Source: a virus
IMG/VR virus record: IMGVR_UViG_3300023196_000245
Coordinates: 1 to 22,405 of that record
Reading direction: 5' to 3' (one strand)
DNA: 22,405 nt
This document shows positions 639-8,035 of this stretch, piece after piece. The position numbers and the translations under genes are program-made. Within the stretch, counting starts at the first letter, position 1; every line of letters starts with the position of its first letter. Below the pieces are notes generated by a model. It had not been told where the DNA came from and ran no database searches. It saw only the letters and a list, made by a program, of their open reading frames with translations.

Positions 639-817
639 GCATGGAGACGGGAATCGTTGCGGCCTTGGAATTGATGGACGACCTGCTGAGCCCCGAGGTG
701 TACGGCCATGCCGTTCCGGCTGATGCTCGGACCAGGGTGTTTGTGGTGCGCGAAATCCTGCGCCGTGAACTTGCCACGCTGACTGGGAACCCCAAGCTGT
801 GGCAAAAAGAGGGCTAA
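635..817 (+). CDS. 60-aa helical phage protein of unknown function
   Basis: ATG 635 overlaps the previous stop as ATGA and has its own AGGAG at 623-627. The protein (MSMETGIVAALELMDDLLSP, then ADARTRVFVVREILRRELATL) is predicted mostly alpha-helical and soluble, with an acidic first half and a basic second half. No motif is recognised. Its 3' end overlaps the next gene by 19 bases. It belongs to the short rightward operon under the control region. Confidence 0.6.
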   Translation: MSMETGIVAALELMDDLLSPEVYGHAVPADARTRVFVVREILRRELATLTGNPKLWQKEG

Positions 818-1191
818 AGCCACGCTGCCAGCCGGCCATTGTCAAGCTCTTGGCGCTTGGCCCGTTGACTGTCCAAGAGATATGGCCTCGGGTGTTCTGC
901 GCAGAGCGCAGCGCTTACATGGTGGTGCGGCAGTTGCATTTGGATCGACTGATCCACATTCAGTCGTACCGGCAGGGTGCGGTCGGCGTGCCGATTGCGG
1001 TCTGGGCCTGGGGCGCTGGCGTTGACGCCGAGTACCCGACATTCAGGACGAACGCCGAGCGCCAGCGGGACTATCGCAAGCGCATGAGCGCCGATGACAG
1101 GGACTTCCTGAAGGCACGCCGCCGTCAGAGAAGTCGAACAATCAAGATCGACCCGCTGATGGCGGCATTCTTTGGGGTGAAGAAGGGTTAG
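799..1191 (+). CDS. Winged-helix-like DNA-binding protein
   Basis: The frame starts with GTG at 799, inside the 3' end of the previous gene. No later start would keep the first helix of the domain. Residues about 13-60 (AIVKLLALGPLTVQEIW to LHLDRLIHIQSYRQ) fit a winged-helix fold: helix, then a helix-turn-helix, then a beta-wing with the arrangement L-D-R-L-I-H-I. Residues 90-120 are very basic (AERQRDYRKRM, then KARRRQRSRTIK), which suggests nucleic-acid binding. Similar proteins are frequent in phages of Burkholderiales and related bacteria. The role, in transcription control or replication, is not known. The stop overlaps that of the convergent gene at 1188. Confidence 0.65.
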   Translation: MAKRGLKPRCQPAIVKLLALGPLTVQEIWPRVFCAERSAYMVVRQLHLDRLIHIQSYRQGAVGVPIAVWAWGAGVDAEYPTFRTNAERQRDYRKRMSADDRDFLKARRRQRSRTIKIDPLMAAFFGVKKG

Positions 1192-2249
1192 GGGGTAAAA
1201 GCGTTGAGCAAGCCTGTTGCTGGCATGTCGTTGACCTCAAGAATTTTGATTAAATCAGGGTCGTAGGTCACATAGTTAACAGACCCAGGTACATCCGGAG
1301 AGTCATAGATCAGGCCAGGTATCCCCTTCTTTCTCATCATCTCTTGAATTTGAGCCTCTTTAACACCAGAGGCTCTTAGTTTTCCAACTATGTCACCGCC
1401 AAGCATGTCACTTCCGGAAATGCCAAGTTCATTGGCAAAAGATTGCACCGCTGCTGGCTGCTCCGAAATTGGCTTGTCGAACAACATGTAATTTGGCAAT
1501 GCTTCGTCAGCAATGTCCAATTTGTACAAATAGCTGTCTCTTGGTAGCTTTTCCAGTTTATTGATGATGCCTTCTGCCTTTTTCGCAAACTCAGGCGAGT
1601 ACTCGCCACTTTTAATAAAATTCTGACGCATCTCACTTGGAAGTTGACTCAACATTGCTGATTCAAGAACTTCCATTGATTCGTAGTCTTTGTTTTTTTC
1701 AGCAGATTTGTACAGGCCCATGACTTTTTCCTCGTAGTCTGGACCCGTTCTCGGAAGGTACTTTCCCTGAGCTTCCCTTCGTGATGCTGCGGCGTAAGCT
1801 CCTTGCGTGTAAGCAGAGCCTGTAGATGGTGCCCTGCTGACATCAAACCGGTTAAACAAATTTGGGCCGGCGTGATAAGCAGTGATGCTTGGCATCAACC
1901 CCTGTCGCTGCAAGTAACCTTCAGCCATGCCGGCTGCTGTCGGTGCAATTGTTTTTGCAGTGGCTTTGGCCAACTGACCGGCAGCCGGTGCCATTGGTGC
2001 CACAGCCAGAGCTGCTTCCAGCACATCAGGCAGCACTCGGGTCGTACCACCAAGGCCACCAGCACCACTGGTCAGTGGTGCGCCGTAGCTCATGCGGTTC
2101 AATGTGCTGGCCACGGCTGGAGCGCCGAGCATTGACATGATGCCCTGCATTTGCTGGGTACGCTCTGGCGATGTTGACGCCTCCAGCAGGTCGGCCAAGC
2201 CACCGAGGAACGGGTTGCGCGGCGTTGGTCGAATGTAGTCTGCCATCAT
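1188..2249 (-). CDS. Putative virion-delivered ADP-ribosyltransferase (ART-PolyVal-like)
   Basis: The protein has 353 residues. Residues about 120-340 resemble the phage ADP-ribosyltransferase domain known from polyvalent proteins (ART-PolyVal). Visible motifs are an opening YHAGPNLFNRFD with His126, TQGAY with Tyr152, LYKLDIADEALPNYMLFDKP (241-260) followed by SEQ with Glu263, and a closing GIPGLIYD plus NYVTYDPDLIKILE. H-Y-E is the triad expected for one ART class. Residues 1-120 are Ala/Gly/Pro-rich with amphipathic stretches, like neighbouring ejection proteins. It is the last gene of the structural operon, which suggests packaging and injection, as known for T4 Alt. The start has TAGGAT just upstream, and ATG 2246 is an alternative. 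The catalytic part is much more AT-rich than the N-terminus. Target unknown. Confidence 0.6.
   Translation of the reverse strand: MMADYIRPTPRNPFLGGLADLLEASTSPERTQQMQGIMSMLGAPAVASTLNRMSYGAPLTSGAGGLGGTTRVLPDVLEAALAVAPMAPAAGQLAKATAKTIAPTAAGMAEGYLQRQGLMPSITAYHAGPNLFNRFDVSRAPSTGSAYTQGAYAAASRREAQGKYLPRTGPDYEEKVMGLYKSAEKNKDYESMEVLESAMLSQLPSEMRQNFIKSGEYSPEFAKKAEGIINKLEKLPRDSYLYKLDIADEALPNYMLFDKPISEQPAAVQSFANELGISGSDMLGGDIVGKLRASGVKEAQIQEMMRKKGIPGLIYDSPDVPGSVNYVTYDPDLIKILEVNDMPATGLLNAFTP
2062..2081. repeat. 20-bp near-palindrome inside the ART gene
   Basis: GCACCACTGGTCAGTGGTGC has perfect nine-base inverted arms around a two-base centre. It lies in the Gly/Ala-rich N-terminal coding part of the ART-like gene, where CACCAC-type triplets are common, so chance is a real explanation. 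In RNA it would make a compact hairpin. No T-tract follows on either strand, so it is not a terminator. Confidence 0.5.
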
Positions 2250-2652: not shown

Positions 2653-4596
2653 TTATTCACCCGCTTGCGCGGCTCCAAGTTCAGAACCAAAACCAAGTTG
2701 CTCGGCCTTCTGGCGCAGGGACTTCGCCAGCGGGTCAACCTTCATCATATTTGCCTTGCTCATCATCACGGCGGCAATCTTCGGGTCTAGCATTGCCTCA
2801 ACAAGCAACTGCTGGATTTTCTCATCCGGCAGCTTGTAGAGAAAGTCCAGCGGGCGTGTCATGCTGCGCAGCGTTGTGTTGCTGGCCATCGACTCGCTGA
2901 AAACTCGGCCGATCAGGTTGCCCATGCTCATGTTGCGGAAGGTGTCCGAGCCTGGTGCCTTGACGCCTGGCGCTGTAGCCGCCTGACCACGGTTGATCTC
3001 GTTGATGATGTTGTCGAGCTTGGTCTGAGCAGCCGGAGACAAGTCAGCGCCGATGTCCTCGCTCTTTGCCGCCAGTTGCCGGCGAAGTGCGGATGCGGCC
3101 AGCACCGGCTCACCCGTCATCAGGTTGGGCTGGCCAGTGGTGACCTTTGACTCAATACCTTGCAGCAGGCGCATCTGGTCGATGGCGCTCGATGACTTTG
3201 CGAACTGGCTCATGTAACGCTGAAAGCCTGGTGCGCCGGACTCAATCACATTGTCGATCACCGGCAGCAACTGGGCCAATTCACCACGGGCCAGACGGAT
3301 GTTGGCCAAGTCGCCGGACAGCTTGCCACTCATGGCGTCTGTGATGTCCTTGCGCACGCTGTACAAAGCCCGTGGGTCGATGGTGCCTGTCTCTGGGTCG
3401 ATGCGCTTGTTGACCAACTGCTGGACATAGGCCATCGCCTGATCCACGCTTTGGCGCTGCTTCATCGGGTCGGCCAGTGTCATGTTGACAGCCTGAAGCA
3501 CTGGACCAGCCGGCACTGGTGTTGAATTGGCAAATGATTGCGTGCGCAGTGGTGCAGTCACCTCGTAGCGCTTGGTCTCCGCAGCTTCAATTGAACCAGG
3601 CTTGCCGGATATCCGGCGATACGCCTCAAGCAGCTTTTGCTGGTTGGCCGACAGCGTTTGAGCAAACGCACCAGACTGGTCCAGTGCGCGAATCGGCGTC
3701 TCAGCGGCAGCCAGACCTGGGTCACGGGCCAGTGCCGCAGTCGTTGGCCGAACACCTGGCACCAGCGGAGCGCCAGCAGCCAGATTGCGCTGCGCCTGCT
3801 CGGGATTGGTGGCCAGACGGTTCAGCAGGTTGCCGATGATGACCTCGCGGCCTGGCTCGGTGAAGGGCTGAACCAATGTCTTGGGGGCGGCAATGGCACG
3901 CTGGGTGATCGGCAGCTTGGGGCCACCAGGGGCCATCATGCCAGCGCCAAGGGCCCCAAGCAATTGAGCCGGACCGGATGCCCCACCTTCGCGCAAAGAA
4001 GCGCCCGTGCCCGCTGACAGGCCAGACGCTGCGATCTGCTGCGCTGGGTACTTGGCCATCGTCTGCAATACATTGGCTGTAGTCGATGGCATCTGGCCAG
4101 CGCCGATGGCGCTTGCACCCATCTGCGTGCCGATGCGGCCAAGGGCAGCCGGAGCGCCAGCACCACCAGCGGCGGCGCGGGCGATGTCGTATGAGATGCG
4201 CTCTTGCGGGGTCTGTGGCTCGGCCATACCCATGCGCGTCATAAGGGACTCAATGCCCTGTGATGCGGTTGGGATGTTTGTGCCGGCAGCGCGGTTGAAC
4301 AACTGCACCATCGGGTCGGCAATCATCGGGCCAAGTGTGGCAACTGCCGCGCCCGTAGCCGCACCGATAGGGCCACCAAACGGAGCGCCAAGCAAAGCAC
4401 CAGCCACTGCCGGCGTTGCTGCTCGACCAGTCAGGCTAAGTTGACGCATCAGGTTATCAGCCATTGACGGCTGCGGCGCTGGTGCGGCAGCAGCTTGCTG
4501 CGAGTTAATGTAGGCAATCAGCTTGCCAACAGACTCGACATCACCCGCAGCGTCAGCCTTGCGCAGTGCGTCATAAACCTCGTTCATGTCTGCCAT
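2653..4596 (-). CDS. Large internal virion (ejection) protein
   Basis: The 647-residue product starts MADMNEVYDALRKADAAGD. Residues about 60-240 are very rich in Ala and Gly with several weakly hydrophobic stretches (GALLGAPFGGPIGAATGAAVATLGP and similar), as in podovirus ejection proteins that line or cross the cell envelope during DNA entry. Residues 280-620 are predicted helical and charged, with FLYKLPDEKIQQLLVEAML near the end. The stop of the upstream 473-aa gene directly abuts this ATG. Position after the tail genes and in a run of similar Ala/Gly/Gln-rich proteins supports the role. No enzymatic motif was seen. Assignment rests on composition and context. Confidence 0.6.
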   Translation of the reverse strand: MADMNEVYDALRKADAAGDVESVGKLIAYINSQQAAAAPAPQPSMADNLMRQLSLTGRAATPAVAGALLGAPFGGPIGAATGAAVATLGPMIADPMVQLFNRAAGTNIPTASQGIESLMTRMGMAEPQTPQERISYDIARAAAGGAGAPAALGRIGTQMGASAIGAGQMPSTTANVLQTMAKYPAQQIAASGLSAGTGASLREGGASGPAQLLGALGAGMMAPGGPKLPITQRAIAAPKTLVQPFTEPGREVIIGNLLNRLATNPEQAQRNLAAGAPLVPGVRPTTAALARDPGLAAAETPIRALDQSGAFAQTLSANQQKLLEAYRRISGKPGSIEAAETKRYEVTAPLRTQSFANSTPVPAGPVLQAVNMTLADPMKQRQSVDQAMAYVQQLVNKRIDPETGTIDPRALYSVRKDITDAMSGKLSGDLANIRLARGELAQLLPVIDNVIESGAPGFQRYMSQFAKSSSAIDQMRLLQGIESKVTTGQPNLMTGEPVLAASALRRQLAAKSEDIGADLSPAAQTKLDNIINEINRGQAATAPGVKAPGSDTFRNMSMGNLIGRVFSESMASNTTLRSMTRPLDFLYKLPDEKIQQLLVEAMLDPKIAAVMMSKANMMKVDPLAKSLRQKAEQLGFGSELGAAQAGE

Positions 4597-6018
4597 TTAG
4601 CGGCTCCGGTTGTAAGAGTCAATGATGCTTTGGATATCAGTGGGGCGCAGGGCACCAGCAGCCGGTGGCGCGACATACGGCGTGTACGCTTTACCGGCAG
4701 ACTTTTTCATGCCCTCTGTGACCACGCGCCGAGCTTCAGCCTTTTGCTTGATCTTGGCGTCAGAATCACCGACTACTGGGAAGTAGGTTTCGTACTCTTT
4801 GCGGGCCTCATCGGCACCGATTGCAGCGCCAGATTCTTTGCGCAACTTGGCGCGAATCCAGTCCTGCGCAGCTTGGTCGTACATCTGAGTTTCTTCGGTT
4901 TGACCAGATCGAGCCAATGCCCCGCCGATAAATGGCACAGCCTCGGCAACTCGGGTGCCAGCGCCAGGCTGCGATCCAGCCGGCAACTTGCCCAGAATGC
5001 TTTGGGACAACTCCATGCGCTGGGCGAAGCCGGCGGCATTTGATTGGCCTTCAGTTGGTGCTGCACCAGCGCCCATTACTTGCTGACCACCAGCGCCCAT
5101 AACAGGCATTGCTGTACCGCCTGGTGTCTTGGGCACATAGACAAACCCAGTCGGAGTCTCTTTGATTTCATTCGCACCACGCAGGAACTCTTGCTGGCGC
5201 AAATTCAAGCCGCCTTGCGCAACCCGCAAGTTGGCCAACTCGGCTGGCGTCATGGTCTGCTGAAAAGCCTGACCAGCCGTGGCTTGTGACTTGTCGATTG
5301 CAACAGTCTGGCCGCCAAGGTTTTGCAGAACAATGTCACGCTTTGGCCCGAAACCAGCCATTGTGCGCAACTCGCCGCTTTCCATCTGCTGCACCATGAT
5401 CGGCTTGCCGGATGCGTCAGTCACCTCAAACGGCTGACCCGTAACTTTTTCCCGTGGACTCAGCATTTCCGCGATGTCCATGTAAGCCTTGGACTTCGTT
5501 GGATCACCAGCCGACAGAGCCGCAGCCCTACGATATTGCTCGGCTTGCACCATCCTTGGATTGATCTGGGCAGTTGGAGCCTGCGCCAGTGCAGCACGCT
5601 GATTGGTCGGGCCCGTTGGACCGGCCACAGACTCTGGTGCTGCCAGTGCCGCATCTTGCTGAGTTGGCATTCCACCGGCAAAGACGCCTTGAATCTGGCC
5701 AGCCAAAGCCTGCGCACGCTTGGCCTCGTCCAGCTTGCTGCGAAGCAGCATCTGGTTGACAGCGCCGGTAGTGCCCTTTTCCTGCGCCTGCTGGCCAGCC
5801 ATGACGCCTTGGCCAAGTGCTTGGCCCAAGCTGGTGCGCTGTGGTGAGCGGCCACCAGCTTGCAGCAATTGAGCGGCCATCGCCATGATGCTCTGGCGCT
5901 TAATCGCTTCTTGCTGCTGCGCAGTCAGGAGGTCATTCATGCCACTGGCGCCACCGCCAAACAGGTCAAAGCCTGTGCCGCCGGCACCGCCCGTGAAGTA
6001 ATCCATAAAACCGGCCAT
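4597..6018 (-). CDS. Gln/Ala-rich presumptive internal virion protein
   Basis: ATG 6018 has a perfect AAGGAGG ribosome site. The 473-residue product has a Gly-rich start (MAGFMDYFTGGAGGTGFDLF), then a Gln/Ala-rich helical segment (about 30-110), a region with ARQ/QAQ-type coiled-coil patterns, and a Pro/Gly-rich middle. Residues about 370-440 (ALARSGQTEETQMYDQAAQDWIRAKLRKESGAAIG) look helical and better conserved in type; related phage proteins often keep a W-I-R-A-K-LRKESGA segment. There is no catalytic motif. Its place between the 298-aa and 647-aa genes suggests a virion protein that leaves the capsid with DNA. Exact function is not recognised. Confidence 0.55.
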   Translation of the reverse strand: MAGFMDYFTGGAGGTGFDLFGGGASGMNDLLTAQQQEAIKRQSIMAMAAQLLQAGGRSPQRTSLGQALGQGVMAGQQAQEKGTTGAVNQMLLRSKLDEAKRAQALAGQIQGVFAGGMPTQQDAALAAPESVAGPTGPTNQRAALAQAPTAQINPRMVQAEQYRRAAALSAGDPTKSKAYMDIAEMLSPREKVTGQPFEVTDASGKPIMVQQMESGELRTMAGFGPKRDIVLQNLGGQTVAIDKSQATAGQAFQQTMTPAELANLRVAQGGLNLRQQEFLRGANEIKETPTGFVYVPKTPGGTAMPVMGAGGQQVMGAGAAPTEGQSNAAGFAQRMELSQSILGKLPAGSQPGAGTRVAEAVPFIGGALARSGQTEETQMYDQAAQDWIRAKLRKESGAAIGADEARKEYETYFPVVGDSDAKIKQKAEARRVVTEGMKKSAGKAYTPYVAPPAAGALRPTDIQSIIDSYNRSR

Positions 6019-6027
6019 GATGCCTCC

Positions 6028-6924
6028 TTAACTGAAAAGACCAAGCAAACCGCCGCCGATTGCGCCAAGGCCGCCTGGAAAGATTGCATTGCCAGCCATC
6101 GCACCACCAAGGGCACCAGCCGCTGGGTTGCTGTATGTCGGCGTTGAACTCGTCCCGCCCAAGTTGGCAGGGTTCAGACCGATGGCACCCTGCATCAAGC
6201 TCAGACGCTGCAAGTTCAGATTGCGCTGTGCGTCAAGCTGCTGCTGTGCGAACTGCTGACGGGCACCGCCCAGACCCATGAGGGCTTGGCCGGCAGCGTA
6301 CTGGCCGGCAGTCTGCTGCTGACCCAAACCACCCAACTGGCTGGCCGCGCCCATGCGGAACTGAGCGCCCTGCATACCTGCGGACTGGTTGGCCAGTGCG
6401 GCCTGCTGAGCAGCATTCAAGGCTTGCGTGTAGCCCTGACTGCGCAAGTTCGCAATCATGTTGCCGGCTTGCGTGCCGTACTGCTGATTGGTCAGAGCCT
6501 CGGCCACGCCTTGACGCGAACCGCCAAACGCCTTGGCCTGCATCGCCTGCTGGCCGGTCTGCTGCACGGCAGCCTGCCGAGCCTTCTCCAGATCACTCAG
6601 GCCGGTGTTGATGACCTCCTGCGTGTACGGATTGAGATACGACTGAATGGCCGCCTGATCCGCACCGACCATCATCGGCTGGTAGCCGGCACCCGCTCGG
6701 GTAAGTTCCGCTGCGGTGTCCAGATTCTGCATACCCACGCCACCCTGCGCGGCTTGCTCGATCTGAGCCTCGCCGGCTGTGTACTGCGGGTTGTAGCCAG
6801 CAAACTGCTGGGTGCCGAGGTTGTTGGCAACCTGCTGGGCGTAGCCCAAGTTGCCCATGTACGCTTGTTTGACATCCGGATCAATGGATGTCGTGGATGT
6901 TTGTGTGCCGCCGCCCTTGCTCAT
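6028..6924 (-). CDS. Gln/Ala-rich virion protein
   Basis: The start chosen is ATG 6924 (MSKGGGTQTSTTSIDPDVKQ), which has AAGGGG in the 3' end of the upstream gene. The frame itself is open to 7062. The 298-residue protein opens with the phage motif IDPDVKQAYMGNLGYAQQVANNL, followed by a long Gln/Ala-rich helical stretch and a Gly-rich C-terminal tail (ALGGAMAGNAIFPGGLGAIGGG) that could insert into a membrane. The same layout is common in podovirus virion proteins near the tail and ejection genes. It probably belongs to the internal protein set, and no enzymatic motif is present. Confidence 0.55.
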   Translation of the reverse strand: MSKGGGTQTSTTSIDPDVKQAYMGNLGYAQQVANNLGTQQFAGYNPQYTAGEAQIEQAAQGGVGMQNLDTAAELTRAGAGYQPMMVGADQAAIQSYLNPYTQEVINTGLSDLEKARQAAVQQTGQQAMQAKAFGGSRQGVAEALTNQQYGTQAGNMIANLRSQGYTQALNAAQQAALANQSAGMQGAQFRMGAASQLGGLGQQQTAGQYAAGQALMGLGGARQQFAQQQLDAQRNLNLQRLSLMQGAIGLNPANLGGTSSTPTYSNPAAGALGGAMAGNAIFPGGLGAIGGGLLGLFS

Positions 6925-6925
6925 A

Positions 6926-8035
6926 TCAGTACCCCTTAAATTTGCCAACCGCATAGCACAGCGGCTCGAGAACAAAACGATAAGCACGGCCAATTGGGTC
7001 GCGCTTTGTGCCACGCATCTCAGCGCGTAAATCAAGTGACCTGTGACGGGCGCAACTCTCAAGGAACTTGCGCACCATCAGGTTCACCTTGCCGTCACCC
7101 TGCTTGAAGCCAAAATCAACCAGCGGCAAGAAAATGGCGTGGTAGCCAGCTTCGTGGGCCTTGGTCAAGTTGTTTTCAGCGTACTTCAGCCAGATGGCAT
7201 TGCGGAATGACCCGAAGCCGTACTGCTGGTTCATGGCGGTGCAGACGATCTTGCTGCTGCTTTCACTTGAAGACCCAGCAGATTCACCAAAGTTAGCAGC
7301 ATCTTGGGCTGCAATTGTGGCGTCATTGGATACGGTCTGACCGGCAGCGTTTACGCCCATACCAGTTTCACCAATGCTGCCACCAGTCGGTGAATCGCTC
7401 AACATGCCATTGTTTGATTGAACTTGGCCGAAATTTGCATAATCTTGAATGCCGATTGTTTGCGGGTTTGAGTAAGATGTCCCGCCGGCCTTACTTCCCA
7501 TACCCATGCCCGTTTCAGATGTGTACGTTTCCGGCGTGTAGCCACTGGCAATAATTGCGCTGTTGGCAACCCGTTCTGGTGCAAGCAAACCCATCAAAAG
7601 ACCTGGTGTTGTGTAAGACAAAGCCTTTTGACCAAACCTAGTAACTGCGGCCATGTTTGGGTTTGCAGCATAGTACGCAGCGTGCTGTGCATCGGTCATG
7701 TTGTCCCACTCGCTGGGCATGGCACTACCACTATCGCTACCGCCAGAAGACCCAGCGTACCGGCTGGTGTAGCTCGGTGCGTTCAGCAGGCCAGACTGGC
7801 TCATGCTTGGGTACGCCATGCCGTTGTTGCCCTGAATGCCCAGCGGCACTTCACGGGACATCAATTGCTGGCCTGTGTACGAAGGACGCATTGGACGGGC
7901 CAAGATAGCCTGCTGGGCGGCCAGTGTGGGGTCAACATAAGGCATGGGCATCGCATTGGCAGCAGGTGTAGAACCCATCGCGGCCAAGTAATTGCGGATT
8001 TCTTCTTCCGTAAGATTTTTACCACCGAGACTCAT
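6926..8035 (-). CDS. Virion-associated protein with conserved C-terminal KIVCTAMN domain
   Basis: The start chosen is ATG 8035 (MSLGGKNLTEEEIRNYLAAM), preceded by AAGGAG and overlapping the upstream stop as ATGA. The protein has 369 residues. Residues 1-255 are low-complexity, Ser/Gly/Ala/Met-rich and probably extended. Residues about 260-365 form a distinct domain beginning KIVCTAMNQQYGFGSFRNAI and continuing through WLKYAENNLTKAHEAGYHA and FLPLVDFGF. I recognise this domain as recurrent at the C-termini of phage virion proteins and some bacterial proteins, without an established function. One Cys lies in KIVCTAMN and another in FLESCARHR. A role in ejection or tail assembly is likely from context. 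Confidence 0.55.
   Translation of the reverse strand: MSLGGKNLTEEEIRNYLAAMGSTPAANAMPMPYVDPTLAAQQAILARPMRPSYTGQQLMSREVPLGIQGNNGMAYPSMSQSGLLNAPSYTSRYAGSSGGSDSGSAMPSEWDNMTDAQHAAYYAANPNMAAVTRFGQKALSYTTPGLLMGLLAPERVANSAIIASGYTPETYTSETGMGMGSKAGGTSYSNPQTIGIQDYANFGQVQSNNGMLSDSPTGGSIGETGMGVNAAGQTVSNDATIAAQDAANFGESAGSSSESSSKIVCTAMNQQYGFGSFRNAIWLKYAENNLTKAHEAGYHAIFLPLVDFGFKQGDGKVNLMVRKFLESCARHRSLDLRAEMRGTKRDPIGRAYRFVLEPLCYAVGKFKGY

Follow-up and report, generated by a model that had tools for sequence, protein, structure and literature searches.

The window analysed here is a stretch of 22,405 nucleotides (nt) of viral DNA (positions 1 to 22,405 of IMG/VR record IMGVR_UViG_3300023196_000245), and the subject of this work is a minus-strand gene that encodes a leader, a linker and a domain of the ART-PolyVal type, a group of ADP-ribosyltransferases (ARTs; Table 1). 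The open reading frame (ORF, 2249 to 1188) is intact, starts with an ATG that has an AGGA ahead of it and encodes 353 amino acids (aa); a second IMG/VR contig (L002) bears a 100% identical copy. An earlier reading made without database searches (the sequence-only reading) had placed it as the last gene of the late operon, and the arrangement bears this out: it closes a tightly packed late block in which the consecutive genes for putative ejection proteins A, B and C, a Cys-rich protein and the 353-aa protein are separated by 9, 0, 1 and 6 nt, and a convergent gene follows. Upstream of the block, on the same strand, lie portal, scaffold, capsid and tail genes, and the portal has a relative in the LUZ24-like podovirus phiM5 (PMC10386132).

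Table 1. Features of the gene and its neighbourhood in the window
Feature	Position	Strand	Basis or remark
Whole gene: leader, linker and ART-PolyVal-type domain	1188..2249	-	353 aa; ORF
Leader, residues 1-95	1965..2249	-	52 IMG/VR loci, many different C-termini
Linker, residues 96-121	1887..1964	-	junction ATKGLPVGASI in most leader-bearing relatives
ART domain, residues 122-339	1233..1886	-	relatives; mostly confident AlphaFold model
His126, candidate strand-1 NAD-site histidine	1872..1874	-	48/48
Tyr152, candidate strand-2 tyrosine	1794..1796	-	48/48
Glu263, catalytic candidate of the sequence-only reading	1461..1463	-	Glu 18/48, Gln 19/48
Asn325, candidate third active-site position, start of NYVTYD strand	1275..1277	-	48/48
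Cassette exchanged in close relative L012	1196..1965	-	DNA comparison
Putative DNA ejection protein A	6028..6930	-	phrog_4287, E 2.4e-5
Putative ejection protein B, Ala/Gly-rich	4597..6018	-	position; no family match
Putative ejection protein C, Ala/Gly-rich	2653..4596	-	position; no family match
Small Cys-rich protein, 6 Cys, 131 aa	2256..2651	-	likewise upstream of many leader genes
Convergent gene	799..1191	+	end overlaps ART-gene stop by 4 nt

Direct searches with the window protein found nothing significant in Pfam and PHROGs (RES at E 0.03), returned no match to Pfam ART-PolyVal (PF18760), gave only chance matches to PDB sequences and a weak profile match to PARP14 (E 0.16), while tblastn against phages returned a single marginal ART, BK063671 (E 0.004). 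The family becomes apparent through intermediate sequences. IMG/VR holds relatives at 59% (L003, L004) and 28-33% identity (L006, L007), of which L007 matches Pfam ART-PolyVal (E 0.0015) and shows the classical pattern YHGTPH...YGYGMYYAE...DKPL...GIRYLD..SR...NFVVFDP. phiGT1_5, which a cultured phage encodes in its head block, also matches this family (E 1e-6); these intermediate scores range from weak to close to the Pfam gathering threshold. Both L007 and phiGT1_5 align with the window protein through the whole domain, from His126 to Asp330. In addition, the second module of a relative bearing the same leader (L145) scores above the PF18760 gathering threshold.

The structural comparison, a check that the sequence-only reading had called for, points the same way. 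The AlphaFold model is confident across the ART domain (predicted local distance difference test score, pLDDT, mostly >80), and its 12 best Foldseek matches in the PDB are all ARTs, with ParT first (probability 0.99, E 0.009), the best solved folds being ParT, a RES toxin, exotoxin A/PE-like toxins and diphtheria toxin, with tankyrase lower. Against BFVD, proteins named ART-PolyVal are matched at E 8e-14, and several are among the best viral models. Homology through intermediates, the fold and an invariant His and Tyr thus support the assignment of residues ~122-339 to the ART-PolyVal (His-Tyr) group, as a divergent member below Pfam detection, in agreement with the ART proposal of the sequence-only reading, whose motifs are found where it placed them (YHAGP with His126, QGAY with Tyr152, SEQ with Glu263, and IPGLIYD). 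An Alt/VIP2-type (R-S-E) ART was considered and rejected, as the protein belongs to the His-Tyr group. Window-type ART domains about 79% identical are present on other contigs, and two of them compared with each other gave nonsynonymous and synonymous divergences of dN = 0.077 and dS = 1.18; purifying selection on the domain is strong among its relatives.

Conservation was counted in 48 relatives, part of which were retrieved with motifs containing His126 or Asn325, so that the invariance of these two residues is partly built in. Invariant in 48/48 are His126, Phe135, Gly150, Tyr152, Tyr242, Gly312, Tyr315 and Asn325, and five ART members fetched by the leader instead of a motif all retain His126, Tyr152 and Asn325. 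The published signature of the group is His in strand 1, Tyr in strand 2 and Asp in strand 5 (PMC5512222). His and Tyr fit here; for the third position the candidates are Asn325, Asp258 (D in 44/48) and Asp330 (D in 38/48), Asn325 being invariant in a late core strand, whereas the published signature names the strand-5 Asp. Asn325 is likewise present in phiGT1_5 and vir555. By comparison with the NEYIVYD strand of PARP1, the strand with Asn325 would be the one bearing the catalytic Glu. The sequence-only reading had named Glu263 as the catalytic residue, which is unlikely because this position is Glu in only 18/48 relatives and Gln in 19/48; judged by conservation, Asn325 and Asp258 are better candidates.

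The N-terminal part of the protein belongs to a family of its own. The sequence-only reading had described it as Ala/Gly-rich and like the neighbouring ejection proteins; the composition holds (30% Ala+Gly in residues 1-115 and 17% in the rest, with 26-34% in the first 115 residues of the ejection-type neighbours), while the likeness does not extend to homology, none being found with the neighbours' N-termini in the searches made. Instead, the leader is conserved elsewhere. It recurs at 98% identity in L005/L012 with another C-terminus, and a four-leader alignment (A3), which includes those of the deposited phages MW202462 and MW202710, retrieved the 52 loci in IMG/VR. The leader proteins have in common MADYIRPTPRNPILGLLAD...ERMAYGEPLTTG.GMTT...ATKGLPVGASI, beyond which their sequences differ; when the first post-leader modules were clustered, 54 proteins fell into 13 clusters.

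Modules were named by Pfam and PHROGs in 40 non-redundant leader proteins; no Pfam family fitting the leader region and no MuF family was among the matches. ART-PolyVal is found in 20/40, as first or second module, a PBECR5 RNase in 3/40, GNAT in at least 2/40 and LPD23 in 2/40, one of these with a clear metallopeptidase match. Matches to the ParB_C profile occur in 9/40 and include an RGSHTAP module whose model weakly resembles R-S-E ARTs (Vis, cholera toxin; best E 0.07, probability 0.35); the cargo pool includes a probable second ART type. In many leader proteins a second module follows a PQQEALDTAQRNAALP linker and ends in RSRFAAFDP. The window protein has one effector domain, while several leader-bearing relatives have two; it was accordingly not classed as a large polyvalent protein, which would have two or more. 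Some loci show further arrangements: L103:2-2410 apparently holds two successive such genes, the end of one that has a WYHGTTGD module and then a complete leader-ART gene, and in L100, L113, L124, L133 and L135 a short module (LTMEEMLKVRDIPTVERVQ...) directly follows the leader, as the sole cargo in L100.

At the DNA level, the exchange of cargo can be followed in close relatives. The window and L012 are 93% identical from 2654 to 1966, unmatched between 1965 and 1196, and 75% identical from 1195 onwards; homology is thus kept to codon 95, gives way to unrelated cargo and is back from the stop codon. In MW202879, whose portal is 98% identical, homology is lost at 2271 and picked up again at 1184, the whole gene thus being replaced; the same slot is filled there by a 504-aa protein (P0001, L008:10756-12270) without leader or family match. 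The window ART, at about 79% identity, also stands behind other N-termini, in L003/L004 and L020-L024. Considering both the swap in L012 and these other N-termini, leader and cargo move independently. In a cargo-swapped relative (L005:5738-7585) putative ejection protein C is also exchanged for an unrelated protein, an indication that the late operon is generally mosaic towards its end. One window-type ART gene (L024:4308-5621) is ~130 aa longer at its C-terminus; the last part of this extension is similar to the module of L127/L143 that bears GNAT, which may point to an additional fusion.

The N-terminus of the L020-type proteins is a second leader (A8), present in at least 80 loci (family L148-L226, MPTLADIYSAI...NPAG), and no relation to the first leader was detected by profile comparison. 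Eight cargo clusters were found in the 75 examined, with ART in 45, one 17-member cluster, and RGSHTAP-like, GNAT-like and other cargo; the cargo pools of the two leaders overlap. These genes lie mostly upstream of terminase, which is the nearest recognised downstream gene in 60/75. For the first leader, neighbours were recognised with a reference set of late/virion-type genes, unlisted neighbours being left unscored, and those recognised on the same strand are ejection, phosphodiesterase, Cys-rich, TerS, TerL and portal genes. The leader gene comes after ejection/phosphodiesterase genes in the window and in L012, L099, L105, L107-L109, L113 and L114, and most others stand between the Cys-rich gene and TerS/TerL/portal. 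No departure from the late/virion-block context was seen among loci with recognised neighbours. From contexts of this kind, others have predicted that ARTs are packaged in the phage head (PMC9503650).

The previous results lead to the hypothesis that the gene is a small polyvalent-type effector, an exchangeable leader with ART cargo that is packaged with the ejection proteins and injected, and we consider this likely. Its late-operon position, the virion and packaging genes around it and the polymorphic cargo behind a conserved leader support injection. Mechanistically, the protein would be produced late and packaged alongside the ejection proteins; the conserved leader of ~95 residues, predicted to be helical, probably loads it into the virion and passes it out through the tail. 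Injected with the DNA, the ART would modify at least one host macromolecule from NAD+ at the onset of infection, for takeover or for disarming of defences, which by analogy with T4 Alt and Ip1-3 seems the most likely action. Packaging and injection are probable from the genomic context and the families involved, from which we also infer the NAD+-dependent activity and a host target. Keeping the leader while exchanging cargo across related small phages would be expected from an arms race with varying hosts. More broadly, small uncultured podovirus-type phages may use short leaders, at least two of them unrelated, as interchangeable virion-loading tags for a shared effector pool, with recombination at the junction between leader and cargo joining the two; the window gene would be one cassette state. 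We give this broader proposal somewhat better than even credence; the pool would comprise two ART types, an RNase, an acetyltransferase, a metallopeptidase, ParB-like and unknown domains.

Several observations weigh against an injected effector. No family match was obtained for putative ejection proteins B and C, and A, B and C all lack a match among phiM5 virion proteins (and equally among those of C72C1 and MW202496); the leader model is of low confidence (AlphaFold pLDDT below about 65), and the leader has no match to a known packaging signal. The Foldseek E-values against the PDB are modest, the window subclade lacks the GEGAQ and FAE glutamate kept in most relatives, which could have altered its activity, and the third active-site residue is represented by sequence candidates (Asn325, Asp258, Asp330). 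Moreover, packaging of the protein and its leader is a prediction from gene context, and an alternative would be a late-expressed effector that is not packaged, the ART acting inside the cell that makes it (on, for instance, host transcription or a superinfecting phage) and the leader serving as a localisation or oligomerisation element. Phage ARTs that stay out of the virion and act at a later stage of infection are known from T4 (ModA/ModB; PMC5512222, PMC9503650), and the lack of a known family for the leader would fit as well. We nevertheless regard this as unlikely given the co-location with ejection, terminase and portal genes, a leader conserved independently of its cargo, and cargo kinds like those of polyvalent proteins, which have been argued to be injected (PMC5512222).

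If the protein were instead a structural or ejection component whose ART-like fold is a catalytically dead scaffold, the missing GEGAQ and FAE residues and an Asn instead of Glu at the likely third position would be explained; the invariant His, Tyr, Tyr242 and Asn325, the purifying selection and a cargo replaceable by unrelated enzymes, unlike a structural part, make this improbable. Least credible, and in our view very improbable, is a MuF-like polymorphic toxin directed at competitors of a lysogen and paired with a cognate immunity gene. MuF toxins do join a constant N-terminal phage part to many alternative toxin or enzyme C-termini, including ARTs and nucleases (PMC5576092), and the leader family shares this design. 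The leader is not MuF, no MuF domain being present, and it lies beside ejection/terminase genes with no linked immunity ORF or temperate sign. No cargo-specific small ORF or immunity gene was seen after the leader genes at the loci compared, and in several of them fewer than about 90 nt separate the stop from the start of TerS. L012 retains the convergent gene despite the other cargo, and MW202879 is 77% identical across this region; since it stays when cargo changes, the gene is not a cargo-specific immunity gene. Finally, a search for the leader in 84,980 bacterial and archaeal species, each represented by a single genome, came back empty, giving no sign of prophages, and a portal scan of genomes for a host or prophage found nothing.

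Compared with known systems, the injected-effector reading places the gene closest to the ART-PolyVal domains of polyvalent proteins (PF18760, Tox-ART-HYD2 clade), alike in fold, strand-1 His, strand-2 Tyr and late context and likewise predicted to be early-infection effectors (PMC5512222); the window protein differs in being short, with a single enzyme domain, its own leader and a divergent subclade. In a related podovirus, phiGT1_5 (Sulfitobacter phage phiGT1, MT584811) has an ART-PolyVal domain behind an unrelated N-terminus and lies between portal and scaffold genes, so that leader and place in the virion block both differ. ParT and RES-domain toxins are the closest solved folds, but are toxin-antitoxin components with other active-site residues, and no antitoxin was recognised at the window. 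In T4, Ip1-3 combine an N-terminal packaging signal with a variable anti-restriction body (PMC12373910), and Alt is an injected ART of the R-S-E group (PMC9503650). The proposed likeness to these T-even proteins is an N-terminal packaging element with a variable injected body acting on host functions; unlike in Ip1-3, the window leader is unrelated and longer, and its packaging role is predicted.

The sequence-only reading presented an ART injected by a podovirus as a new route, which was overstated, as earlier work had proposed both head-packaged ARTs and ARTs fused to virion RNA polymerases of podoviruses (PMC5512222, PMC9503650). What is new is that, in small podovirus-type phages, short leaders unrelated to each other are combined with a pool of effectors that can be exchanged, a variant of the polyvalent, MuF and internal-protein theme; no account of such a leader-cargo family turned up in a search covering part of the literature. 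Should the leader prove to be a loading tag, a short stretch of sequence would be enough to find injected effectors in metagenomic phages, whatever the cargo, and the family would be a natural experiment on what phage injection needs. Modules of unknown kind behind the leader would then be candidates for new host-takeover or counter-defence activities, and the system would be a compact podovirus-type delivery route beside the MuF, T4-Ip and giant polyvalent-protein routes.

Two minor observations concern the surroundings of the gene. The Cys-rich protein encoded upstream of most leader genes has its cysteines at positions 30, 68, 71, 102, 109 and 115 in the window and is annotated in other records as 'high potential iron-sulfur protein'. 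MW202879, MW202462 and MW202710 were deposited as Myoviridae, and their portals match those of LUZ24/phiM5-type podoviruses.
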